Source: a virus
Strand: one strand, 5' to 3'
DNA: 20,511 nt
IMG/VR virus record: IMGVR_UViG_3300045119_000472
Location: 1 to 20,511 of that record
Shown: piece after piece, positions 2,036 to 20,511 of the stretch
Numbering within the stretch: position 1 is the first letter of the stretch
How the letters are laid out: the number at the start of each line of letters is the position of its first letter
Program-made: the position numbers and the translations under genes
Notes under the pieces: generated by a model
The model's input: the letters and a program-made list of their open reading frames with translations, nothing else
Told to the model about the DNA's origin: nothing
The model's database searches: none

Positions 2036-3409
2036 TCAGCCCGCGAATTGGGAGAAGTCCATCCCGCCGCCGCCCGCTCCGGCGAGCATGGTCGGATCGG
2101 TCCAGCCACCCGAGTAATCGTTGAACCCGCCGCCAGCGGGTCCGGCCGTGTTTCCGGGCATTCCGCCGCTGAAGTTGCTCGATATCGGGTTGCCGAAGGC
2201 GTCCACGTTACTGCCGTACATGCCCGCTTGACCGGCAGGAGGCTGGGCGCCGCCTTGGCCGAACATGCTGTTATACCACTGGCTGAGATAGTTGGTCCCC
2301 GGCATGCCCACTCCGCCGACGCCGCGTCCAGCGCCACCGGTGAGGCCAGATAGACCGGTCAGTGCCGCGTTCATGTTGCTCGCGTTCTGGCCGGCGCCGA
2401 ACTCGCGGTTTGCGAGGCCGAGCTGGCCGATTCCGGTTGCTGCCGTGTTCGCCTGTCCCATTGCGCCGAGCCCCTGAACTTGCCGCCCGAGCTGCTGGTT
2501 TTGCCAGTCGATGTTGAAATCGCTCATCGCCTTGTTTTCTACGCCGGCCGAGTAGGGCGACATCGCCACGCCGCGGGCGGAGTCCGATGCTCGCACCTGA
2601 TCCTGTAGCTGCTGCTGCGTGCGTCCGTACAGCGCCTGCTGCGGGTCGAGCGCGGTGTTGTAGGTCTGCTGTCCGGCATTGACGAGCGCCTGCTGTTGCG
2701 GATCCAGACCGGGGTTCGACAGCCGGTTTCCTTGCGTGAGTCCGTAGATGCCCGCTCCGCCACCGAGCAAGGGGCCGAGCCAACTGAGGTCGCCGCCGGG
2801 AGGCTGTCCGCCACCGTAGCCCACCGGCCCTTGTGGACTGCCGCCTGCCTGCCATGAATAAGGTTGCTGCTGCATAGTGCCTCCTTGACCGCCGCCAAGT
2901 GCGCGCGTTGCTGCATTGACTGCGGGGCCGGTATACCACGGTAATCCAGAACCGCCGGTTGCGCCACCGGCGCCCGCGGCGGCTCCCGCTCCTCCGGCTC
3001 CACCAGTCGCCCCAGCGCCGCCCGCTCCGGCAAGGGGATCAGCCGCGTAGGGCAACGCTCCGGCGCTCCCACCAGCGCCAGCGCCCGCACCACCCACTGC
3101 ACTAGCATCAGCCGCGCCACCAGCCCCCGCTCCGTATGCTGCCAGTCCAGCCCCGCCGACTAGCGCAGCCACGCCGTAAAGACCTGGATTTTGATACCAC
3201 GGAGTATTCACCCCCGAAGTCGAAATCTCGGACGCGTTATCGCGATCGTACAAAGCCTGCGCCCCGCCACCTTGAAACCACGCCAAGTCAGCAGCGTGCT
3301 GAGGATCGTTCGTGGCGTTCCACTGAGGCGAGCCCCAAATCGGACCGGCAGAACCGAGACCGGCAGAACCGAAATCGCTAGCTGGCGAGAAGCCGCGGTC
3401 TTGGATCAC
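2036..3409 (-). CDS. Gly/Ala-rich internal virion / DNA-ejection protein candidate, 457 aa
   Basis: Residues about 78-160 are almost wholly Gly, Ala and small residues (YGVAALVGGAGLAAYGAGAG onward), able to form membrane-active helices. The region about 235-350 is Gln/Asn-rich helix with QQQLQDQVRASDSARGVAMS, AGVENKAMSDFNIDWQNQQL and LGAMGQAN, an order I associate with ejection proteins of short-tailed phages. The C-terminus is Gly/Met/Asn-rich. Such proteins are injected with DNA to help form a channel across the envelope. It starts at GTG 3409, overlapping the previous stop (GTGA). The role is inferred. Confidence 0.6.
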   Translation of the reverse strand: MIQDRGFSPASDFGSAGLGSAGPIWGSPQWNATNDPQHAADLAWFQGGGAQALYDRDNASEISTSGVNTPWYQNPGLYGVAALVGGAGLAAYGAGAGGAADASAVGGAGAGAGGSAGALPYAADPLAGAGGAGATGGAGGAGAAAGAGGATGGSGLPWYTGPAVNAATRALGGGQGGTMQQQPYSWQAGGSPQGPVGYGGGQPPGGDLSWLGPLLGGGAGIYGLTQGNRLSNPGLDPQQQALVNAGQQTYNTALDPQQALYGRTQQQLQDQVRASDSARGVAMSPYSAGVENKAMSDFNIDWQNQQLGRQVQGLGAMGQANTAATGIGQLGLANREFGAGQNASNMNAALTGLSGLTGGAGRGVGGVGMPGTNYLSQWYNSMFGQGGAQPPAGQAGMYGSNVDAFGNPISSNFSGGMPGNTAGPAGGGFNDYSGGWTDPTMLAGAGGGGMDFSQFAG

Positions 3410-7356: not shown

Positions 7357-8975
7357 GCCTTGTTCGTGTATCCGAGGTCTTGATAGCGTGCGAAGAATGT
7401 CCCGACAGAAAGAGCCGAGGCCGTAGATGCAGTTATTTGCAGCGCCATTTTCTTGAACACCAGGGGCGCCGTCCACGGCACGTTATACACGTGCGGGATG
7501 TTAAGCGAACTCGTCCAGAGCGTGCCATCCCCCCAGTTGAAGGCACCCCAGTTCTTTCCCTTTGAGGCCGTAATCATCTGCGTCTGGTTCAGTTGATTGT
7601 TCTGGTCATCCACCGCCGTAACTGTGTATGCGACCGCGCTTCCCGCGGCGGACAGTTCCTGCGTCGATTCGACCACCTGTTTCTCGGTCATGTGGCCGGT
7701 CTTCGGGAAGGTCGAAGAGGTCATCGTGGTCATCAGCGCAACGCCGTTGTCGGCATAGACTGAAGTCGAATCCGGAATGATCTGGCTCTTGAAAAGAATC
7801 GCAGGATTCGCGTTCGACACCAGGACGAAGTAGTTGCCGAGTTGCGTCCCGTTGTCGTATGCAAAGGTGTGCGGCCCGGTCCAGCGTTTGCGGTGCTCGT
7901 CGTACCAGTAGTCATTGACCGAATCGACGCCACGGATGACCGTTTCGAGCGACACGCGGTACACAGTCCCCGAATACACTCCGTTGATCCGAGAGGGCGT
8001 CACCGCGTTCTGGAACGGAACCTGGATGTCAGGATTGTCGTCGTCTCTGCCAGAGTGCGTCACGGGACGCACAAGCCCGAGCTGGTCAACGATGTACGGT
8101 CCCCCGGTCGAGACGAAGTAGCAGCCCTTTGGAGAGTTGGCAGTCGAGCGGGGCGCCGAGGTTCCCACCGTCAAGGACAGGTAATTCTGCGCGAGGTTGT
8201 TCGTCGCCGGATCGCCCGTGATCTGCCACACTTGGAACGGTTTGAATACGAGCAGAGCCTGCACGATTCCCGTCGATGTCGTTTGAACCGGCAGACCCTG
8301 GAGCGAGGTAATCACGTCCGCGTCGCCTATCGTCAGGGCCTGCGTGGCAGATGTCCGCGTGAGCGTCAGCACGTCCGTATAGGCGAGCGATTGCGGATTC
8401 GAGAGCGCGAAGTAGGCGCGGTTGTAGAAATTCGCCACAGCAATCGGCACTGAAGGCAGGGCGTTCGTCACCGTGTCCTGCGCGGTCCACGTCGGTGCGC
8501 TCGGAGTCGAAATGTCGAACACTCCGAACTTGATCGCGCCGCCGGAGAACCCCGGATGCGTGACGACGATCTTCGTTCCGATGTTCGCCATTGTCGGAGG
8601 TATCCACGCTCCGGTCGTCGCTTGGGTACTCGGGCTGTTGGCGTTCGTGATCCCGGTTACCGTGTCGAATGTACCGCTCGTATGGTTGAAGGAAAACGGT
8701 TCGTCCTTGCCGGAATTCCGCCCGCTCGCAATCATCCCGTAGGTGCGCGAGCCAATCGTCATATGAACGGAAACTGCTCCCGGCGTGGTGAAACCAGGGA
8801 AATTCGTAATGACCGTCACACCGGGCCTTGAAACCATGATCTCCGGATTCGACTGGTCGAAGATCAGGTTGATGAGCGAGATGCACGCCCCCGGAAACTT
8901 GTCCGTGGCGTCGAAAGCGTCAACGAGGCCGCGCGGAGTGAATCTGACTGGGTAGTTGCGTTCTCGGATCGGCAT
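7353..8975 (-). CDS. Tail nozzle/stopper-like structural protein candidate, 540 aa
   Basis: This large, soluble, beta-rich protein has many repeated strand-turn elements, starts MPIRERNYPVRFTPRGLVDA and includes VSRPGVTVITNFPGF, KPFQVWQITGDPATNN, GCYFVSTGGPYIVDQLGLVR and NDYWYDEHRKRWTGPHTF. 'RPGv..' early and 'v..yd...k.Wt' strand pairs are typical of propeller-like tail proteins such as P22 gp10 or T7 gp12, and its size and position after the adaptor suit that role. I infer the role. I chose ATG 8975, overlapping the HNH stop (TAATG), instead of GTG 8990. The stop overlaps the next start (ATGA). Confidence 0.55.
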   Translation of the reverse strand: MPIRERNYPVRFTPRGLVDAFDATDKFPGACISLINLIFDQSNPEIMVSRPGVTVITNFPGFTTPGAVSVHMTIGSRTYGMIASGRNSGKDEPFSFNHTSGTFDTVTGITNANSPSTQATTGAWIPPTMANIGTKIVVTHPGFSGGAIKFGVFDISTPSAPTWTAQDTVTNALPSVPIAVANFYNRAYFALSNPQSLAYTDVLTLTRTSATQALTIGDADVITSLQGLPVQTTSTGIVQALLVFKPFQVWQITGDPATNNLAQNYLSLTVGTSAPRSTANSPKGCYFVSTGGPYIVDQLGLVRPVTHSGRDDDNPDIQVPFQNAVTPSRINGVYSGTVYRVSLETVIRGVDSVNDYWYDEHRKRWTGPHTFAYDNGTQLGNYFVLVSNANPAILFKSQIIPDSTSVYADNGVALMTTMTSSTFPKTGHMTEKQVVESTQELSAAGSAVAYTVTAVDDQNNQLNQTQMITASKGKNWGAFNWGDGTLWTSSLNIPHVYNVPWTAPLVFKKMALQITASTASALSVGTFFARYQDLGYTNKA

Positions 8976-9406
8976 TACTGCGTTCCCCACAATTGCCAGA
9001 TTCGCTCCGGTGTAACGCCGTATCTCGCTGCAACAGTCTTTGCCTTTTCTTGTCCTTTCATTCCAAGAATCTCAGCAACCTGAACGTCAGTAAGTTTCGC
9101 CATTCCGTGACGCTCTCCTGTGGCCTGACGATGCTTTGCAACCTTATCGCGTATGTTGTCTTGTTGAGTACCCAAGAACAAGTGGTCTGGATTCACGCAG
9201 AGGGGCACGTCGCAATGATGCAATACGCATTGCCCATTGGGAATTTCTCCTTTGTGCAATTTCCATGAAAAGCGATGAGCAAGTACCGGTCTTCCTCTTA
9301 CTCCGAATCCTCCGTAACCGTCACGAAGTTCAAAGCTCGTCCATATCCAGCATCCGCATGATGCCTGAATATATTTCGTGGCGAAGCGTTGTTCGAGTGT
9401 GAGCAT
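8975..9406 (-). CDS. HNH homing endonuclease, 143 aa
   Basis: A CGCWIW segment (17-22) and GYGGFGVRGRPVLAHRFSW (30-48) lead to the core CVLHHCDVPLCVNPDHLFLG (60-79): HNH residues His63/64, Asn72 and His75, with Cys60, Cys65 and Cys70 as likely structural zinc ligands. QQDNIRD follows as usual in this group. Residues 103-140 form a helix-turn-helix (LTDVQVAEILG, VAARYGVTPERIWQLW) for DNA recognition. These genes spread by cutting alleles that lack them. GC content is about 49% by hand count over 9001-9360, lower than the capsid region. Start ATG 9406 overlaps the adaptor stop and its TAA overlaps the next ATG. Confidence 0.88.
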   Translation of the reverse strand: MLTLEQRFATKYIQASCGCWIWTSFELRDGYGGFGVRGRPVLAHRFSWKLHKGEIPNGQCVLHHCDVPLCVNPDHLFLGTQQDNIRDKVAKHRQATGERHGMAKLTDVQVAEILGMKGQEKAKTVAARYGVTPERIWQLWGTQ

Positions 9407-10095
9407 CAATATGGCGATAGCTTAGTAGGGCGCAGAGTCCTGTTGAGATGGAATCTCTGAGGGTCCAATCTTATTTCCTTGACCACCTTCTGCTCGTCGC
9501 CTTCCATAATGATGTGGGTTCTCAGCAAGGTTTCGCCATCCTTGACGAACTGCTCGTAGCGTTGGTCGTCCGTCGATTTCATCAAGCGCGTAGCGGTCGC
9601 GTGAATGAGGTAATCCTGATCGGGAAACCACGGCACGGTCGAAGAAGTTTCCGGCGTTGCGATGTCCGGCATGTTCACCATGTAGCGGTGAGTGAGGGCG
9701 AGCGCAGTGGTGGACTGCGGGAAGATGAATAGGCTCCCCTGCCCTTGCGTCTGCTGCGCCGTCAGGTCGGTTGCATAGGCGTAGGGGTAGTTCGCAATCG
9801 ACGGGTCTTTGAAAAGCGCGTCGTACTGCTCCTGCGACAGGGGAAACAGGAAATACGGGAAATTGTTGACCGTGTAGTAAAGGTCGTAGGTGCGAAGGTA
9901 ATCGGCCGGCAGTAGGAACGGCCCGTTCGATCCGATCGTGATATTGATCGTCGCCTGCTTCCGCAACATCTTCAGGTCGCGGTGCAGAACGAGATCGTTT
10001 AGAACGAGATTGAGGGCCTGACCGCCCCTCGACGTAAAGCCGGGAGCCTTCGCTACTTCACAGGCGTAATTGACGATCTGCGTCGAGGTGAGCAC
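9406..10095 (-). CDS. Head-tail adaptor / connector candidate, 229 aa
   Basis: The N-terminal helices (STQIVNYACEVAKAPGF, then GGQALNLVLNDLVLHRDLKM) resemble the helical bundle that adaptor proteins insert under the portal. A beta part follows (FLLPADYLRTYDLYYTVNNF, GSLFIFPQSTTALALTHRYM), then a C-terminal helix (EQFVKDGETLLRTHI). Size and order match podoviral adaptors such as T7 gp11 or P22 gp4 in role, but I see no decisive motif. The start is GTG at 10095, preceded by AGGGTGA; no ATG lies in frame near it. Its TGA overlaps the start of the HNH gene (TGATG). Confidence 0.5.
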   Translation of the reverse strand: MLTSTQIVNYACEVAKAPGFTSRGGQALNLVLNDLVLHRDLKMLRKQATINITIGSNGPFLLPADYLRTYDLYYTVNNFPYFLFPLSQEQYDALFKDPSIANYPYAYATDLTAQQTQGQGSLFIFPQSTTALALTHRYMVNMPDIATPETSSTVPWFPDQDYLIHATATRLMKSTDDQRYEQFVKDGETLLRTHIIMEGDEQKVVKEIRLDPQRFHLNRTLRPTKLSPY

Positions 10096-10099
10096 GACA

Positions 10100-10525
10100 T
10101 CACCCTACCCCGGCTTTTTTCTTTGCCTCCTGGATGGCTTCGGTTCCCTTGTCGATTTCCTCGGATACCTTTGCGATGTTGACGCGCATGTTCTTCAGGT
10201 TCATGCGCTCCTGCGACGAGATGTTCCCGGACTGCTGTTTCTCTTCAAGTTCGGCCAGAACATCGCGCGCCTGCTGCAAGCCCTTCACCATCTGCTCTTT
10301 CTTCGCCTCCAGCTCGGGGATCTCGGCGCGCGAACGCTGGCGCTCGATCACTTCCTGAAAAATGTCGCAGCGGTCGTTCAGAGATTCCTTCGATTCGCCG
10401 TCGTAGGCATAGAACTGAACCTGCATCCCTCGACCGGAATTCCCGGCCAGTTGGGCGGTCAGTGTGACGGTGCCGGTGATCGCGGTCTGAGCGGGGTTGG
10501 CAAGGACGGTCTTTTTCCCGAACAT
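10100..10525 (-). CDS. Phage protein with beta N-terminus and coiled-coil C-terminus, 141 aa
   Basis: The first 45 residues look like beta strands (VTLTAQLAGNSGRGMQVQFY). Residues about 52-135 form a long charged helix with heptad spacing (ERQRSRAEIPELEAKKEQMV, QQARDVLAELEEKQQ, RVNIAKVSEEIDKGTEAIQ). The C-terminus is Lys-rich. I do not recognise the family. It lies between the capsid and the adaptor candidate, with TGATG coupling to its upstream gene, so a head-completion or assembly-factor role is reasonable but unproven. The TGA stop is four bases before the next gene's GTG. Confidence 0.6.
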   Translation of the reverse strand: MFGKKTVLANPAQTAITGTVTLTAQLAGNSGRGMQVQFYAYDGESKESLNDRCDIFQEVIERQRSRAEIPELEAKKEQMVKGLQQARDVLAELEEKQQSGNISSQERMNLKNMRVNIAKVSEEIDKGTEAIQEAKKKAGVG

Positions 10526-11010: not shown

Positions 11011-12435
11011 TTACGGGGTCACAGTACCAATGTTGTAGCCAGGAGAAAATGCACTGGACGACTCTACGCGCATAAAGAAAGCCTGATTCAATATGATGCT
11101 GCCGTAGAACACCTTCCACGACACGACGCGCGTTTGGTTGAGCGGGTCGGACTTGTCGGCGCCGGTCAGGTAGTGGAACTCGGGGTTTTCCAGCAGCACC
11201 TGTCCGTAGGCGTGATCCCCGATGATGATCGTCGGGAACACGAATACGCCGGTGGCTGGTGCGGCCTGCGGGGTCTGCGCCGCGCCGATGCCGGTGATGA
11301 TGACCGTGGCGCCGCTCGCAAGCTGGGTGGCTTGGCCTGCCAGAGGTCCAGTCGCGGGGCCAGACGCGGATAGTCCGAGGTTCGTCGGGCTCGCCGACGT
11401 TCCGATGTAGACGTTGAACACGTAGTTCGCCACGGTCGGCAGGACGACGCTGATCGAGCCGTTCGGTCCGGTGACGACCACGCCCGCGCCCACTTGGTAA
11501 ATCTTTTCTTCGACCGATGTCTGCGCCTTCGACGCGGTGATCTGTACGAAGTAGGTATTCGAGGCGAGGTTGCCGCCCGAGGCGGACGCCGTGCCGTTGG
11601 TCGTGTTCGCAAGCCCCTGCCAGAACGGGATCATGTTCGACTTGCAGAAGCGCACTCCGCCCCATTCGCCGAGGTCGTTGTTGTAGAGCCGGTTTACATC
11701 TGACATCGACCAGGCGTTCGCCACGGTCGCGTTCTGGCGCATGTCGTTCACCGGCAGCGCGTGGATGAGCGCAACGTAGTGCTCCATCACCGAGGGCGAG
11801 CGTGAGCGGTCGTTGTACGCTCCGGCTTCCTTCATGATGTCTTCGCGCTCGTCGCCCATGAAGTGCGGCACGCCGTAGGCTTCCATCGAGCCGACCGCGC
11901 GATAGACTTCGGTCGGGGACAGTACGTCGGTTGCGACAAGCGCCGCGCGGTTCGCGCGCGAGTTGACGAAGTTGACCTGATTTCCGGCGATCAGGGTATT
12001 CATCGTGTTGCGTTCGAGCGTCTCGGGCAGTTGCAGGCTCACCAACTGAATCGCCTGCTGGAATAGCGGGTGCTTGATCGTGAGGTTCGCAACGTCGGTT
12101 ACGCGCACCAAGTCGCCCCACTGTTGGGCGGTGGCGGAAACCTGCGTGAGGGTCATGCCTTCGCCGGTCGGCGCGACGCCTTCCTGCAAGGCCGCGAAGG
12201 GGAGAGGCAGGCGTTCGTAGCGGGAAGCCGTGTAGGTCGTGCCCCGGTTGATGTCGAGGCGCAGCGGTACGCCGAACTGGTAGGCGACGAGCAGGCGCCG
12301 GGAAAGCGGTTCGACCTCCTCCTGAATGTACGCCTCTACGTCGGCGGTGAAGCCCGCAGCGGCGTTGGTCAGTCCCGGCCGGAACAGGCCAAGAACCAAC
12401 GAGAGGCTCAAATTGAAGGTCAGATTCGCTTTCAT
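11011..12435 (-). CDS. Major capsid protein, N4-gp56 family-like, with Ig-like insertion, 474 aa
   Basis: This is the HK97-fold shell protein. Recognisable family segments are EVEPLSRRLLVAYQFGVPLR (41-60), the E-loop region with GVAPTGEGMTLTQVSATAQQ (87-106), VTDVANLTIKHPLFQQA (112-128), MSDVNRLYNN, and the C-terminal VVSWKVFYGSIILNQAFFMR (437-456). Residues about 285-395 look like an inserted Ig-like domain (YFVQITASKAQTSVEE, NVYIGTSASPTN, GATVIITG), an insertion known in some members. The N-terminus MKANLTFNLSLSLVLGLFRPG is unusually hydrophobic. It has a good Shine-Dalgarno and a TAA stop. The family call is from recall of conserved segments; a profile search would settle it. Confidence 0.9.
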   Translation of the reverse strand: MKANLTFNLSLSLVLGLFRPGLTNAAAGFTADVEAYIQEEVEPLSRRLLVAYQFGVPLRLDINRGTTYTASRYERLPLPFAALQEGVAPTGEGMTLTQVSATAQQWGDLVRVTDVANLTIKHPLFQQAIQLVSLQLPETLERNTMNTLIAGNQVNFVNSRANRAALVATDVLSPTEVYRAVGSMEAYGVPHFMGDEREDIMKEAGAYNDRSRSPSVMEHYVALIHALPVNDMRQNATVANAWSMSDVNRLYNNDLGEWGGVRFCKSNMIPFWQGLANTTNGTASASGGNLASNTYFVQITASKAQTSVEEKIYQVGAGVVVTGPNGSISVVLPTVANYVFNVYIGTSASPTNLGLSASGPATGPLAGQATQLASGATVIITGIGAAQTPQAAPATGVFVFPTIIIGDHAYGQVLLENPEFHYLTGADKSDPLNQTRVVSWKVFYGSIILNQAFFMRVESSSAFSPGYNIGTVTP

Positions 12436-12440
12436 GAACG

Positions 12441-12446
12441 TCTCCT
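12441..12446 (-). promoter_or_regulatory. Ribosome binding site AGGAGA for the major capsid gene
   Basis: AGGAGA lies five bases before the capsid ATG at 12435 and overlaps the scaffold TAG. This fits strong initiation for the most abundant virion protein and couples it to scaffold translation. Confidence 0.75.
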
Positions 12447-13200
12447 AGATTTGCACGTCCTGCAACTTGCGTTCGAGTTTCTGCTTCGCGGTCATTGCGC
12501 CGCTCTTGCCGGTCACGTCAGACCGCGCGCCGGGGAGTTTCCCGCGTGCCACGGTTGTCTTTTCCTCGCCCTTGTCGGCGGCAGGTTTCTTCCGCGCGAA
12601 CTTGTCGTCCAGGGCGTCCTGTCCGATGAGGTACTTGAAGATCGCCTCGCGCTGGGCGTTGCCGCCGTTGGCGCGCACCTTCGCGAGTTCCTCCTCGACG
12701 CGCGCCTCGTATCGTTTGAAAAGCGCGGGCTTCTTGATGGCGACTGCGGCGAACGCAGTCTTGTCGGAAACGTCGTGCGCTTGCGCGAGTGCGAATTGAG
12801 CGGCGTTGCGGCCGGCCCGCAGTTCGCGGTTCGCCTGGATCTGCCACTTTTCAAGATCCGAAGTCTTCTCGTCTGCGAGGCGTGCGTTCTCCCGGCGCGT
12901 GACTTCATCCTCTGCCGGGCCGCGCTGGCGGCGCAGATCGCCGAGCTCGCGCTCGTACCGATCGGCACGCTCCTTCTCGGCTTTGACTGCGGCCTGCGCC
13001 GCGTTGAATTCGTCTGCCGAGGGGCGGGCGTCCTTGCCATCTGGCTTGTCCTTGTCCGGTGCGGCGTCCGGGAGGTCAAGATCGAGATCGTCGGCCGGGT
13101 CCGGAGCGTCTTCTTGTTTTTCTTCTTCCTTGTCGGCGTCCGGATCGGGCTCGCCCACGCCGAGGGCAAAAAACGCGAGCAAAAATGCGAGCAGTTTCAT
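12445..13200 (-). CDS. Capsid scaffolding protein, 251 aa
   Basis: Scaffold proteins guide capsid assembly and leave before maturation. This one has an acidic N-terminal third (Asp/Glu/Pro-rich, about 17-60), a long charged helical region (65-175), then a basic C-terminus ending KQKLERKLQDVQI, the type of helix that binds the capsid shell. It lies directly before the capsid gene. I chose the ATG at 13200, which overlaps the previous stop (ATGA); the longer frame from 13272 would run across the previous gene. The first 16 residues (MKLLAFLLAFFALGVG) are strongly hydrophobic and signal-peptide-like, odd for a scaffold. The stop TAG overlaps the capsid gene's ribosome binding site. Confidence 0.75.
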   Translation of the reverse strand: MKLLAFLLAFFALGVGEPDPDADKEEEKQEDAPDPADDLDLDLPDAAPDKDKPDGKDARPSADEFNAAQAAVKAEKERADRYERELGDLRRQRGPAEDEVTRRENARLADEKTSDLEKWQIQANRELRAGRNAAQFALAQAHDVSDKTAFAAVAIKKPALFKRYEARVEEELAKVRANGGNAQREAIFKYLIGQDALDDKFARKKPAADKGEEKTTVARGKLPGARSDVTGKSGAMTAKQKLERKLQDVQI

Positions 13201-13721
13201 AGGGTGAGTCCTCCGCCGATTCCGACGATGGTGACGGTTCCGGCATTTACGTTCGTATTGACGATGAAGCATCGAGCCGTGTCGGTCAATACGGTCAAGG
13301 TCTTCGCGTTGACGGTAACACCCGAGCCGCCCGCCAGTGTCACGGTCTGCCCGGTGCCGTCATTCATGAATACCCACAGGAAATTGAACCCGGCGCCCGG
13401 AATTGTCGGAGGCAAGGCGGCGATGATCTGCGCGGCAGTGGGCGTGGTGACGGTAATACCGGAACTCGCGGTGCTCGAAAAATCGACCACCATGTTTATC
13501 ATCTGCACGCCGGTCAGGGTGACAGCCGTTGCCGCCCCGCCAGCGACCGCGATCAGGTCCGGGTCCAAGCCGTCCAGGTTGGCGATGAGGCCCATGAGCC
13601 CGTACATGCCGACGTTGTCCGGAACGATCCCGGCCGGGACATTGGCGATTTGACCCGGCAACGAAGTGGTGTTCGCGGCGGCTTGCGGGCGGAACAGCGC
13701 GCGGATCAATTTGGAGATCAT
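13197..13721 (-). CDS. Decoration-type virion protein, 174 aa
   Basis: The N-terminus MISKLIRALFRPQ is followed by a Gly/Pro/Val-rich segment and a beta domain (about 95-172) with TAAQIIAALPPTIPGAGF, GQTVTLAGGSGVTV and ARCFIVNTNVNAGTVTIVG. The order matches the C-terminal domain of the 14403..14951 product, so I regard them as paralogues. Few charged residues and position immediately before the scaffold gene suggest a capsid-surface or head-fibre protein. The function is inferred. ATGA overlaps occur at both ends, giving tight coupling to the glycosyltransferase before and the scaffold after. Confidence 0.6.
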   Translation of the reverse strand: MISKLIRALFRPQAAANTTSLPGQIANVPAGIVPDNVGMYGLMGLIANLDGLDPDLIAVAGGAATAVTLTGVQMINMVVDFSSTASSGITVTTPTAAQIIAALPPTIPGAGFNFLWVFMNDGTGQTVTLAGGSGVTVNAKTLTVLTDTARCFIVNTNVNAGTVTIVGIGGGLTL

Positions 13722-14401
13722 GCTGCCTTCTCCTCTTGCACGGACGGAATTTGCGCGTGGGTGTACTGGAAATTCCCCACGTGCCCGATATGCCGCGAAA
13801 GGTCGTGGTCGATGTACGTCTCGAACCCGGCGTCCTCGGCCCGCTTGATGAAATACCAGTCCTCGCCGACGAACTGCTGGTGCTTGTCGGAGTAGCGAAG
13901 CTCGAACCAGGGTTTCGGCATCGACTTGAGTATCGAGCAGTCGATCATCATGACGCCCGACCCGACTCGCCAGACCTTTTCAAGCCCCATCGGATTCGAG
14001 GGCGAATTCGACAGGATCGGCACGCCGAAAGGCGAGGGGCCGCGCGCTCGAGCAGTCGGGTACGAGGGAATGGTTTTCAGCGGGATGTTGCACGCGACGA
14101 TGGACTTTTTCCAGCGCATCAGCCGGTGCGCTGTGTCCATCGGGAACGTCTGATCGGAGTCGAGAAAGAGAACGTGCGTGCAATCCTGCAACACGGCATC
14201 TTCCAGGATTTCCTGACGCGAGCGCGGCAGGTTGGAAGTGCGCTTGTCGATGAATAGGACTTCGCGCGATTGCCCTTCCTCGAACAGCGCCGCCGACATA
14301 TAGACGCACATCTGCGCAAGCGAGTACCCGAAGTCCGCTTTCCAGTCCCCGAGGGACGGGATGCCGATCGCGAGCTTGGTATGGTTGGGCGTGTTCGACA
14401 T
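13718..14401 (-). CDS. GT-A glycosyltransferase-like protein, 227 aa
   Basis: A beta strand ending VLFLDSD (residues 77-83) gives the DxD motif that binds the metal and sugar nucleotide in GT-A enzymes. Before it, RTSNLPRSRQEILEDAV resembles the helix 'R..i...Al' of this group, and afterwards CNIPLKT, a VGSGVMMID strand, and GEDWYF (179-184), an acidic motif of the acceptor/catalytic region, with a late SRHIGHVG. There is no membrane anchor, so it should act in the cytoplasm. The donor and acceptor are unknown. Within a virion operon it might modify a capsid or fibre protein, or host glycans. Its stop overlaps the next start (ATGA). Confidence 0.8.
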   Translation of the reverse strand: MSNTPNHTKLAIGIPSLGDWKADFGYSLAQMCVYMSAALFEEGQSREVLFIDKRTSNLPRSRQEILEDAVLQDCTHVLFLDSDQTFPMDTAHRLMRWKKSIVACNIPLKTIPSYPTARARGPSPFGVPILSNSPSNPMGLEKVWRVGSGVMMIDCSILKSMPKPWFELRYSDKHQQFVGEDWYFIKRAEDAGFETYIDHDLSRHIGHVGNFQYTHAQIPSVQEEKAA

Positions 14402-14402
14402 C

Positions 14403-14951
14403 CTACAGGCCCGCGGCGCTGGTGCCGCCGGTTCCGAGGTTCCAGGTAAAGAGGTTGGTCAGGCTGATGGTGTTCGAGCCGGTGACCTGTCCGAGGAATA
14501 GACGAGCCGTAGCCGAGCCGATGACCATCGTGCCGAAGAGCTGCACGCCGGTATTCGATCCGATGGTGATGGCGCCAGAGCCGAGATTGGCAACGGTAAG
14601 GGGAAAGGTCTGGTTGACTTTCGCCCCGGGGATGGCGGCGACGATATTGGTGCCGGTGTCGGTGGAGTCGGTAGTCGCGGCGCCGGGGGAAAATCGCATG
14701 ATGTACCCGCCGACCATTGCGGCGGCGGGGTACATCGTGGGCGCGGGGCTGTTAGGGATGATGGTTCCGCTCGCGTTCCCGAAGGCCGGGGAGGCGTTGG
14801 CCGAGAGCGCGGCGGCCAGCCCGACCATCGCCCCGTTCGGGACGAGGGCGCCCGCCTGTTCCAGGTTCTGCGCTGGGTCGTTCGGGCCGAGCTTGACTGT
14901 GGTGATGCCGAGGTTGAAGAACGAGAGGAACAACCGGATCAATGCAGGCAT
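14403..14951 (-). CDS. Decoration-type virion protein, paralogue of the 13197..13721 product, 182 aa
   Basis: I chose the ATG at 14951, preceded by GAAGGAGAAG six bases away, over the ATG at 14969, which lies inside that signal. The N-terminus is short and hydrophobic (MPALIRLFLSFFNLG), followed by an Ala/Gly/Pro-rich middle and a C-terminal beta domain (about 98-168) with TGTNIVAAIPGAKVNQTF, SGAITIGSNTGVQL and TARLFLGQV. This domain order (T..IvaaiPga...F...v.N.g...iti..g..l.g...i....r.fl..v) recurs in phage structural proteins and is shared with the gene two positions on. A capsid surface role is inferred. The stop lies one base before the next ATG. Confidence 0.6.
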   Translation of the reverse strand: MPALIRLFLSFFNLGITTVKLGPNDPAQNLEQAGALVPNGAMVGLAAALSANASPAFGNASGTIIPNSPAPTMYPAAAMVGGYIMRFSPGAATTDSTDTGTNIVAAIPGAKVNQTFPLTVANLGSGAITIGSNTGVQLFGTMVIGSATARLFLGQVTGSNTISLTNLFTWNLGTGGTSAAGL

Positions 14952-16277: not shown

Positions 16278-18265
16278 TACTTAAAATTCTTCCTCGCGAC
16301 GGCATAGCCCGCCGTGCTTTCCATGTAGAGCGAGAACACGTCGATGTTCGAGAATCCGCTTGAGAGCACTGGCAGCGTGCGGGCACCGGCGACCGCCTCG
16401 AATTTCCAGTAGGCGTTCCAGCCGATGTTCGGCAGGCCCGTTCCAAGCTGCATGATCCGCAAAATCGCCGAGCCAGCGTTCGGCACATTCGCCGGAGTGT
16501 CCATCAGACCGACTGCGGTCGAGTCCATCCCGAGAAGCCCGATCGCCCCGCTTTGCATGTTCCACTTGATTGCCGATCCGAACGTCAGAACCTGCGATTT
16601 CATCGTCGGGTTCTGGAACGTGCTCGACGTGAGCGTCTTGCCGCTCAGGGCCTGCGGCACGTCGGCGTTAGTCATCGCGCGGAATGAGGGCGTGCCCGGA
16701 AGGGTTCCGGTCCCCGGCCCGCCGAAGATGAAGTTTTGCGTCTGGAACACCCAGCTTCCCAAGAATTGCCCCGAGGTCGTGATCGGAGATCCGGCGATGA
16801 TGAACTCCGAACTCATGACCAGAGCGACCGAAGTCACCGTTCCGGTTCCTCCCGAGGGCGTCGGAGGAACTGCAAAGACGCCATCCCCACGCAGGAAATT
16901 GGAAGTCAAATTCGTGAGGGGCAATCCCTGAATCGGTCCGGTAGAAGTGAGTCCTCCCAACAGTACGCCGGGACCGAAACTCCCCATTGCCGTGCCGCCG
17001 TGGGCAACGCTCAAAGGCTGCACAAAACCGACGACGAGCGTCCCGGCTCCGGTGATCGGGTTACCGCTCGTCCTGAACTCCGAACTGAGTGACAGGTCAA
17101 CCGAAGTGACGCTGCCAGGATTGCTCGGGGGGAAGCCGAATACTCCATCTCCACGGAGGAAGTTCGATGTGAGATTTGTCAACGGCAACCCTTGCACCGG
17201 CGCAGTCGAAGTCAATCCGCCTTTCAGGATCGCCCCGACACCGATGCTGCCTAACCCCGTACCCCCGTGCGCGACCGCGAGGGGCTGCGTGAATCCGATC
17301 GTGAAGGTGCCGGAACCTGTGATCGGAGTCCCTTGCACCGAGAATTCCGAAGTCATCGCAAGCGCGACCGACTGCACGGTTCCGCCCGGATTGATCGGTA
17401 TGCGGAAAATTCCGTCGCCCGCAAGGAACGTGCTCGTCAGGTTCGTGAGCGGGAGCCCTTGCAGATTTCCGGTCGAGGTCAACCCGCCCATCACGAGGCC
17501 CGGTCCGAAACTTCCCATCCCGGTCCCTCCGTGGGCCACACCCAGTGGAGCGCGCCATCCGACGACGAGTTGACCGGCGTTCGTAATAGGATTCCCGCTT
17601 ACCGTGAATTCCGAGGAGAGCGCAAGGTCAACCGATGTCACGGTTCCCGCACCGCCGCCTCCGCCGGAAGGTGGCGTGCTGAAATTCCCTGTGCCGTCCA
17701 AGAACGTCGAAGTTAGATTCGTGAGCGGCGTTCCCTGGAAGGGAGCGGTCGAAGTGAGGCCGCCGCGCACCACGGCTCCGATGCCGACACTACCTAACCC
17801 TGTTCCGCCATGCGCGACATTCAACGGTTGGATGAATCCTGCGATCAGCACGCCCGCACCGGTGACCGGGTTTCCGCTGATTCTGAATTCAGAGCTGAGA
17901 GAAAGATCGACCGAAGTTACGGTTCCAGTTCCGCCGCCGGTCGGTACGGGAGGCGTCGAGAAGTTCCCGGTGCCATCGAGGAAGGTCGAACTCAACCCCG
18001 TGACCGGGATGCTCTTGAATGGCCCGGTGGAGGTTGGGCCGGCGGTGAGAATGGAGTTCGCGGCAAACGATCCCATGCCGGTGCCGCCGTCTGCAACCGG
18101 AATCGCGGTGCCGCTGAAGTCGAAGGTGAGGTTCCCGGACGAAGTGACCGCCGGGCCGGTGATGAACGGAGCGGGGCCGGTCAGGCCGACCGAAGTGACG
18201 CCGCTCCCGGAAAGCTGCCCTCCGCCTGTTCCCGCCGCTCCCTGGATTACACCTTTGAGCGCCAT
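16277..18265 (-). CDS. Repeat-rich fibre protein, 662 aa
   Basis: Six related units of about 90 residues fill residues 19 to about 560, the last one degenerate. Each typical unit carries TVTSVDLSLSSEF, an AHGGTG-type turn, GGLTST, LTNLTS.FL.GDG and a Pro/Gly linker. GGTG turns of this kind occur in phage fibres. The sixth unit changes into a FRAMTNADVPQALSGKTLTS segment, and residues 560-662 form a distinct, repeat-free C-terminal domain that could be the receptor-binding or trimerisation tip. The start ATG at 18265 overlaps the peptidase gene by 19 bases, with a weak GAGG upstream; the stop overlaps the next start (TAATG). Its place between portal and scaffold suggests a head fibre, but a tail fibre is equally possible. 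Confidence 0.75.
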   Translation of the reverse strand: MALKGVIQGAAGTGGGQLSGSGVTSVGLTGPAPFITGPAVTSSGNLTFDFSGTAIPVADGGTGMGSFAANSILTAGPTSTGPFKSIPVTGLSSTFLDGTGNFSTPPVPTGGGTGTVTSVDLSLSSEFRISGNPVTGAGVLIAGFIQPLNVAHGGTGLGSVGIGAVVRGGLTSTAPFQGTPLTNLTSTFLDGTGNFSTPPSGGGGGAGTVTSVDLALSSEFTVSGNPITNAGQLVVGWRAPLGVAHGGTGMGSFGPGLVMGGLTSTGNLQGLPLTNLTSTFLAGDGIFRIPINPGGTVQSVALAMTSEFSVQGTPITGSGTFTIGFTQPLAVAHGGTGLGSIGVGAILKGGLTSTAPVQGLPLTNLTSNFLRGDGVFGFPPSNPGSVTSVDLSLSSEFRTSGNPITGAGTLVVGFVQPLSVAHGGTAMGSFGPGVLLGGLTSTGPIQGLPLTNLTSNFLRGDGVFAVPPTPSGGTGTVTSVALVMSSEFIIAGSPITTSGQFLGSWVFQTQNFIFGGPGTGTLPGTPSFRAMTNADVPQALSGKTLTSSTFQNPTMKSQVLTFGSAIKWNMQSGAIGLLGMDSTAVGLMDTPANVPNAGSAILRIMQLGTGLPNIGWNAYWKFEAVAGARTLPVLSSGFSNIDVFSLYMESTAGYAVARKNFK
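16800..18210 (-). repeat. In-gene direct repeats of about 265-280 bp
   Basis: Successive copies of the segment encoding the SVDL..SSEF element lie near 18195, 17905, 17625, 17360, 17095 and 16820, giving a period close to 270 bp. The GGTG-encoding segments recur near 18085, 17810, 17530, 17270 and 16995. Copies are divergent in DNA but clear in protein. They code part of the fibre protein and are not mobile DNA. Confidence 0.85.
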
Positions 18266-18708
18266 GCGACCAGCCTCGCAACGCGCTCATCGACCGCAGG
18301 ATGCAGGGACGCACGCGCGTCGGTTTTCATGCGCGACAGGGCACTCGCGAGTTCGATTCCGCGATTGCACTCGGCTGCGAACCAATCGGCCTGAAATTCC
18401 TGCGTGACGCAAAGTTGCACGAACGCTCGAGGTGCAAACACGATTTGCCACGCGGCGAGGATGCGCTTTTCGATATGCAGAAGTTTCGCGTGCGCTACTT
18501 CGTGCAGGAGGATCGCTTCGCGCTCGCGCTCGGGGAACGCATTGAACGCGCGCCCGATCACGATTTTCTTCCACCACAGGATTCCTTGCGTCTGGATGAG
18601 TCCGGGCGCGGTCATGAATTTCCACGGCCACCACCAGCGATTGACAAGCGTGATCGAAACCGATTGCAGGTTCGGATCGTACTCGACCGGCACACCCAAG
18701 CAGTTCAT
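18247..18708 (-). CDS. M48-like HExxH zinc metallopeptidase, 153 aa
   Basis: HEVAH at residues 69-73 supplies the zinc-binding pair and catalytic Glu of a gluzincin. QEFQAD (residues 103-108) supplies the downstream Glu104 as third ligand with Asp108, the E-x3-D arrangement of peptidase family M48. The two motifs are separated by a hydrophobic stretch (about 82-101), as in membrane M48 enzymes. The N-terminal half is Trp-rich (NRWWWPWK). It is much shorter than HtpX-type proteins and lacks their N-terminal transmembrane helices. I chose the ATG at 18708, which makes an ATGA overlap with the previous stop, over the in-frame GTG at 18720. Lying between portal and scaffold, it may process virion proteins; that is inference. 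Confidence 0.75.
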   Translation of the reverse strand: MNCLGVPVEYDPNLQSVSITLVNRWWWPWKFMTAPGLIQTQGILWWKKIVIGRAFNAFPEREREAILLHEVAHAKLLHIEKRILAAWQIVFAPRAFVQLCVTQEFQADWFAAECNRGIELASALSRMKTDARASLHPAVDERVARLVAWRSKV

Positions 18709-18959
18709 ATCGGGAACCACGTCATGGTTGGCGCCACGATAAAGGTGACGCGTATGAAATCTCCGGGACAGAGGAAGAACATTCCGCCGAGGAGGCCGGT
18801 CGCGAAGAAGTTCGTCCCGTCTCTGGAAATTTCAATGATGGATACGGTGCCTGCATTGACCGTGATATTTCCGGGGACAGTGCTTTGAAACTGGTACGGC
18901 GAAGCACCGACCGTGACGGCGACGGAATTACCCGGCGGTTGCCATCCGGGTTGCGTCAT
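18705..18959 (-). CDS. Small beta-rich virion protein candidate, 84 aa
   Basis: The product is 84 residues, with NSVAVTVGASPYQFQSTVPG, then VSIIEISRDGTNFFATGLLGG and a C-terminal FIRVTFIVAPTMTWFPI. This layout (VTVGASP.. / EISRDG / RVTF.VAPT) matches a small phage protein type I recall from structural regions, without known function. The start ATG at 18959 overlaps the microprotein stop (ATGA), and its TGA overlaps the next ATG in the same way. There is no signal peptide or transmembrane helix. A capsid or fibre accessory role is inferred from context. Confidence 0.6.
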   Translation of the reverse strand: MTQPGWQPPGNSVAVTVGASPYQFQSTVPGNITVNAGTVSIIEISRDGTNFFATGLLGGMFFLCPGDFIRVTFIVAPTMTWFPI

Positions 18960-19423: not shown

Positions 19424-19430
19424 CTCTCCT
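19424..19430 (-). promoter_or_regulatory. Ribosome binding site AGGAGAG for the gene at 19057..19419
   Basis: AGGAGAG lies just upstream of the ATG at 19419, with six bases between the AGGAG core and the start. It overlaps the portal stop codon TAG, so termination and re-initiation are probably coupled. It supports the chosen start. Confidence 0.7.
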
Positions 19431-20511
19431 ATCCTCGTCCGGGTGCGGCGGCTGCGTCCGGGTGGATCATGCCGGGGGGCTGCTGCGGTCCCTTCGGCCC
19501 TGCGGGCGCGGCGCCCATGCGCGGTGAACCGGGCACACCGGGCCCTGAACCGCCGGGCATCCCTTGCGCGCCCGACTGTTGCGCCATCTGCTTTTGCAGC
19601 TTGATCTGCATTGCCATCGTGTGCTTTGCGATGTGCGCACGATACCGCCCGTTCGGGTCGCCGGTCAACTGCGCGCCCTGCAAGTGCTTCTGCAAGTGCT
19701 CCTGATCGTTGTCGGCTTCGTGGACATCGACCGGAAGGTTGTTGTGCATCATCAGGTTTTCGGTATCGGCGTCCACCGTGAACATGTTTCGCTCGTCGAT
19801 CAGGATTTTTGGGCCCATCTCGGCTCCGAACAATGCCTCGACCTGTTTTTCAAGGATCGGCGTCACGTCCACGCGCCGGCCGTTCAGTTGCTGCGGCGGG
19901 ATGCCGCGCAGCACGTTCATGAATCCGATCTGGAGTTGTTGCTGCTGCTGGCCCGCGACGATCGTCGTTCCGGCCCACTGGAAGCGGTAGCGTTCGCCGA
20001 ACTGCTGCGGCTTGATCTCGGTCATCTTCGCCTTGACGCCGATCTCGCCTTTGGTGACCACGCTTAAAGTGGAAGTGCGAAACTGGGTGTCGTACTCGAA
20101 AAGCCGCTCGACCAGGGGCGTGAGCATCGCCTCCTCGCAGTATTCCGAATCGTCCATGATGTTCGTCATCGACTCCTGCTGCATCTGGCCCATCAACTGG
20201 TTGTTCTTTCGCCCTTGAGGCATTTTCCCCATCATGAGTTCGTTCACGTCCATCGACTCCCAAATCTGGCGCTTGATCGTGTCGCAAAGCGGCAGCGCCT
20301 CCTTGTAGAGTTGCGGCATCGAGGCGAATTTGGTCTTGTTCGGATCGACCGACCACACCGCGGCGAGGCCGATCACCATGCTCGCGTAATTCGGGTTCGC
20401 AAGCGGATCGGTCATCGTGATCGGCAGGAGCGAAAACATCGCCGAGTCCTGCCCCATGTTCCAGTAGTCGTTCAGGTTCCACTGCATGAATTTCACGGGC
20501 GCGATTTTGGA
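19429..20511 (-). CDS. Phage portal protein, C-terminal part (5' end outside window)
   Basis: The frame is open to the window edge, so 360 residues of a longer protein are visible. The portal is the dodecameric ring at one capsid vertex through which DNA is packaged and ejected. Portal-like features are an ERYRFQW segment followed by a Gln-rich helix (QQQQQLQIGFMNVLRG) and a late DNDQEHLQKHL motif with a further HIAKH, a pattern I associate with podoviral portal C-termini. The last 40 residues are Gly/Pro/Met-rich and probably disordered. It precedes the scaffold and capsid genes in transcription order, as expected. The stop TAG overlaps the Shine-Dalgarno of the next gene. A GTG at 20496 is probably an internal Val rather than the start. 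The family call is from pattern recognition, not a search. Confidence 0.8.
   Translation of the reverse strand, partial: SKIAPVKFMQWNLNDYWNMGQDSAMFSLLPITMTDPLANPNYASMVIGLAAVWSVDPNKTKFASMPQLYKEALPLCDTIKRQIWESMDVNELMMGKMPQGRKNNQLMGQMQQESMTNIMDDSEYCEEAMLTPLVERLFEYDTQFRTSTLSVVTKGEIGVKAKMTEIKPQQFGERYRFQWAGTTIVAGQQQQQLQIGFMNVLRGIPPQQLNGRRVDVTPILEKQVEALFGAEMGPKILIDERNMFTVDADTENLMMHNNLPVDVHEADNDQEHLQKHLQGAQLTGDPNGRYRAHIAKHTMAMQIKLQKQMAQQSGAQGMPGGSGPGVPGSPRMGAAPAGPKGPQQPPGMIHPDAAAAPGRG

Follow-up and report, generated by a model that had tools for sequence, protein, structure and literature searches.

The prohead proteases described in the literature that we searched are of the gp21 or the HK97 type. 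In bacteriophage T4, internal protein III is directed into the head by its first ten residues, which the serine protease gp21 removes (PMC9026906), and a single protease of SPN3US processes numerous head proteins at a motif common to them (PMC10052503). In HK97 and D3, the genes are ordered portal, protease and capsid (PMC12749128). The locus described here lies in a 20,511-nt stretch of viral DNA (positions 1-20,511 of IMG/VR record IMGVR_UViG_3300045119_000472, hereafter the window) and resembles these systems in two respects, a putative protease gene placed between the portal and capsid genes as in HK97 and D3 (PMC12749128), and a head-gene protease accompanied by short N-terminal peptides common to several head proteins as in T4 (PMC9026906). 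However, the serine protease gp21 cleaves after L/I-X-E, whereas the present system combines a putative zinc peptidase of the M48 family with a hydrophobic leader ending in [PL]-[GA]-[VIL]. The HK97 and D3 proteases release a scaffold domain of roughly 100 residues that is fused to the capsid protein, whereas the M48 phages encode their scaffold in a gene of its own and have a leader of about 15-25 residues. The parallel with T4 is one of presumed function, not of homology.

The gene for the M48-like zinc metallopeptidase (18247..18708, minus strand) starts with ATG at 18708, stops at 18247 and encodes 153 amino acids; on the plus strand of the same interval a stop already occurs at the fourth codon. 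Its ATG overlaps the stop of the frame at 18705-18959 and its own stop overlaps an ATG at 18265, so that it shares bases with both flanking genes, in the manner of an operon. The protein contains HEVAH (residues 69-73), the predicted zinc ligand Glu104 within QEFQAD, and HPAVDER (residues 136-142). Its score against the Pfam model Peptidase_M48 (PF01435) is 22.0 bits, above the curated cut-off of 20.3. Scanning with the capsid protein returned 80 related loci, in which an iterative profile search recognised the peptidase in 56 frames, and all 24 aligned relatives matched the Pfam model at E<=0.1 (best 1.7e-9). The first relative found, from locus L003 (39-45% identity), retains HEAGH, QEYEAD and HPPLSER. 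Across the alignment of 24, in which identity falls to 25%, residues H69, E70, H73, R82, E104, D108, P137 and R142 are invariant, and HExxH is therefore not a chance match.

Among solved structures, the profile search matched Ste24p (1.7e-7) and ZMPSTE24 (about 2e-6), and the profile alignment with Ste24p pairs HExxH, the Glu-containing E-x3-D and the C-terminal HP..ER region. An AlphaFold model (pLDDT 87, pTM 0.82) placed ZMPSTE24 and Ste24p at the top of the Foldseek ranking with a probability of 1.00, at E-values of only 0.004 and above; by both profile and fold, these two enzymes are the best matches. Searches of the window peptidase against Pfam, PHROG and NCBIfam gave no match to a serine prohead protease family. 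By family and motif, the product of 18247-18708 is thus a small M48-type zinc peptidase, whose activity is predicted from these sequence features. A preliminary description had proposed an M48-like enzyme with an intact zinc motif, to be compared with peptidase family profiles; the Pfam score above the cut-off, the 24 matching relatives, the invariant residues and the fold match all bear this out, and H69, E70, H73, E104 and D108 lie where it had placed them.

Most cellular M48 enzymes are larger and carry membrane helices, transmembrane segments being common among them. The phage protein differs from Ste24p and ZMPSTE24 in its length (about 111-158 residues among the relatives and the window protein), in its lack of clear transmembrane helices and in its location in a phage head module. 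The highest hydropathy over 19 residues is 0.5-1.9 across the peptidases and 1.6 in the window protein. The Pfam M48 profile does not require transmembrane segments and small soluble relatives are known, so their lack does not exclude membership of the family. In size and predicted solubility the phage protein fits the minigluzincins (proabylysin, PDB 4jiu), which have a small soluble M48/M56-like core. The profile match (E 0.032) and the fold match to 4jiu are weak, however, and this similarity is partial; the E-x3-D region and the HP..ER tail are features that the phage protein shares with Ste24p. Giant viruses and other phages also have annotated M48 proteins, and phage M48 genes as such are therefore known. 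A search of 50,697 phage records gave no convincing relative of the peptidase (no match for the window and L024 proteins; E 0.3 and weaker for the L044 protein). The first viral match, L001, was rejected as a chance match of FNAFPERE within a helicase-like frame.

The other head-module genes of the window are likewise on the minus strand. They comprise the C-terminal part of the portal protein (19429..20511, truncated where the contig ends; identity to the L003 portal 69-70%), small protein A (14403..14951), its homologue B (13197..13721), a putative scaffolding protein (12445..13200) and the major capsid protein (11011..12435, PHROG 1357). The labels of portal, terminase and capsid rest on PHROG matches, and the portal call is backed by the L044 relative of the window portal, which matches a PHROG portal family at 1.3e-8. 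'Scaffold' was assigned from an acidic composition and a place directly upstream of the capsid gene, and the predicted fold of the capsid protein (pLDDT 34) was not used. Between A and B, positions 13718-14401 encode a weakly glycosyltransferase-like protein of PHROG 1574 (unknown function) that occurs in 9 loci only, and an inserted protein among the tail genes (8975-9409) appears, as judged by eye, HNH endonuclease-like.

Four of these proteins, in the window and in the other genomes of the clade that carries the peptidase, share a hydrophobic N-terminal leader that terminates in x-[PL]-[GA]-[VIL]; the leader is hence common to at least three unrelated protein families. In the window it reads MPALIRLFLSFFNLGI in A (encoded at about 14904-14951), MISKLIRALFRP in B (about 13686-13721), MKLLAFLLAFFALGV in the scaffold (about 13156-13200) and MKANLTFNLSLSLVLGLFRPGL in the capsid protein (about 12370-12435). 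The capsid proteins of the clade have a hydrophobic start ending in PGVTN or LGVxN, and a second example of the set is provided by L085, with MRKTILARLVGLVFPAV in an A/B protein, MSKLLQRLLGFLFPGV in the scaffold and MLTKILALLTGLMFPGV in the capsid protein. Start codons were judged from ribosome-binding sites and codon variation, not from protein data; good ribosome-binding sites precede most leaders of the scaffold, A and B. Differences at the first, second and third codon positions were 0.27, 0.17 and 0.64 in scaffold leaders and 0.44, 0.36 and 0.58 in capsid leaders. As the third position is the most variable, the leader is evidently translated and constrained. The idea that it is a block of DNA copied between genes was rejected, since leader DNA of the same genome is essentially no more similar (0.44) than that of different genomes (0.42).

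A position profile trained solely on 34 capsid leaders, with its threshold at the 98th percentile of 322 other genes, passed 29/34 scaffolds and 19/49 A/B proteins, and none of the 38 scaffolds from genomes with a leaderless capsid protein. No portal or peptidase passed, and only 1/65 of the genes just downstream of the capsid gene did so. Two other high scorers, a fibre-like protein of L019 (14400-14969) and the L094 homologue (about 9238-10359) of window gene 2036-3409, carry leaders that match the type of the capsid genes in their own genomes. Where the motif allows P or L, capsid and scaffold leaders have the same residue in 27 of 28 genomes (17 P-P, 10 L-L and one mismatch, which is the window itself), an agreement that tracks clades and offers only 2-3 comparable independent switches, all in the same direction. 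In five loci (L030, from 3464, L032, L039, L041 and L057), an in-frame insert, LTLQTIISFFVNYHKRDSGRTWTLMAYRQLPMY, splits the capsid leader between GLLWA and LFPGVTN; the peptidase is there wherever these loci extend to it.

On balance, we consider it somewhat probable that a small M48-type zinc peptidase of head assembly removes the hydrophobic leader common to the capsid protein, the scaffold, A and B. The leader would probably first gather these four proteins into the assembling prohead or at a membrane. The peptidase would then remove it from all four, cutting near the [PL]-[GA]-[VIL] motif, and its removal would release or mature the head proteins, as gp21 does with the capsid-targeting sequences of T4. 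We infer each of these elements, namely catalysis, the leaders as substrate, the point of cleavage and its timing. Leader removal is favoured because, in relatives without the peptidase, leaderless capsid proteins start just past the position of the leader, and their scaffolds are usually leaderless too. These relatives came to light with a distant capsid protein as the query; the L088 capsid protein, used likewise, gave no matches. B proteins that lack the leader also begin right after its position, and most scaffolds of genomes with a leaderless capsid protein open straight into their acidic part.

Of the distinct genomes in which a portal is encoded, 24 combine leader and peptidase and 30 are without either, L107 being the single case of a leader unaccompanied by the peptidase. 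The deeply branching L143 carries both. The full set of leaders nearly coincides with the presence of the peptidase. On the capsid tree, leader and peptidase each have about one origin, the two lying on adjacent branches, and the co-occurrence is therefore a single historical event that is unreplicated.

The same comparison bears on an alternative in which the shared leader is a retained signal for assembly or membrane docking, the peptidase having some other structural job such as clearing of the scaffold or trimming of the portal or fibre. This is unlikely in our estimate, and yet it is the strongest of the competing explanations. It draws on the sister clade (L107, L151, L153 and L156-L158), in which the capsid N-terminus is leader-like, scaffold leaders occur in L153, L157 and L158, and no M48 peptidase was found throughout the contigs searched; a Pfam scan of the proteins from portal to capsid in L153 revealed a beta-helix domain and capsid families but no peptidase of another kind. 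It also draws on scaffolds whose hydrophobic N-terminus closes with FAPP or a similar sequence, in eight loci (L109, L118, L124, L141, L154, L160, L165 and L169) that have a leaderless capsid protein and no peptidase. However, the leader set that is full in peptidase genomes is partial in the sister clade, where B proteins mostly begin past the leader and A proteins retain a short stub only. The preliminary description had named the hydrophobic N-termini of capsid proteins as a possible target. That suggestion gains strong indirect support from the finding of one leader on at least three unrelated families, mostly absent where the peptidase is absent, and is weakened by the leader-like termini that the sister clade has without the enzyme.

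Another possibility, which we regard as less likely still, is that the target of the peptidase lies in the host (a membrane or defence protein, for instance), its place among late genes being incidental. Cellular M48 enzymes do act on membrane proteins, and the tie of the peptidase to the head comes from genes, not from virions. Against this stands the strict location of the gene, kept even in relatives as low as 25% identical. Where both portal and capsid genes are present, the peptidase lies between them in 53 of 54 loci, and in all 53 of the clade, a count that includes near-identical copies and reduces to 24 distinct loci at 95% capsid identity. The one exception, L089, lacks the leader as well. 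The peptidase start overlaps or abuts the portal stop in most loci of the clade. A scan with the peptidase alone added 69 loci, all of the same head module, in which missing portal or capsid genes are explained by contig ends in every case except L238. This locus was considered as a peptidase outside the head module and rejected, being a decayed prophage remnant that has lost the terminase, portal and capsid genes and retains an intact peptidase beside its usual downstream gene. The placement in the head module that the preliminary description had read from one genome is thus upheld by synteny, and the homologues lie in structural modules, not solely outside them. The lack of any match to defence-system models and that of a clear transmembrane segment also count against a host target. 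A non-catalytic role for the protein, as a structural derivative of an M48 enzyme, might be suggested by its size, far below that of cellular M48 enzymes, but is very improbable, given that the catalytic and zinc-ligand residues are all invariant and that HExxH is kept in every untruncated homologue.

In its broadest form, the proposal is that a minimal soluble relative of Ste24p serves as a metallo-type prohead protease and strips one shared hydrophobic head-targeting leader from the capsid protein, the scaffold and minor head proteins. Peptidase and leader would then make up a system of assembly and maturation independent of the known serine prohead proteases; we put this broader proposal forward tentatively, at a little short of an even chance. 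No metallo-type prohead protease was described in the literature searched, which consisted mostly of non-subscription papers, so that its absence is unproven. What appears to be new is the position of an M48 peptidase in the head module together with the shared leader, and this pairing suggests that head proteins may be trimmed during assembly by an enzyme of a new type.

The carriers are a group of poorly known phages. Hosts known by name belong to Paraburkholderia (P. phenoliruptrix, P. tropica and one Paraburkholderia sp.), with prophages in P. phenoliruptrix LMG 22037 and P. tropica LMG 22274, and one further locus comes from a beta-proteobacterial MAG. As carriers are found in Paraburkholderia genomes, the proposed processing of the leader is approachable in culturable strains. 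A zinc prohead protease, if true, would mean that the proteolysis of capsid maturation has been recruited from a different catalytic class, and the leader could act as a tag directing proteins into the phage head, as the T4 sequence does.
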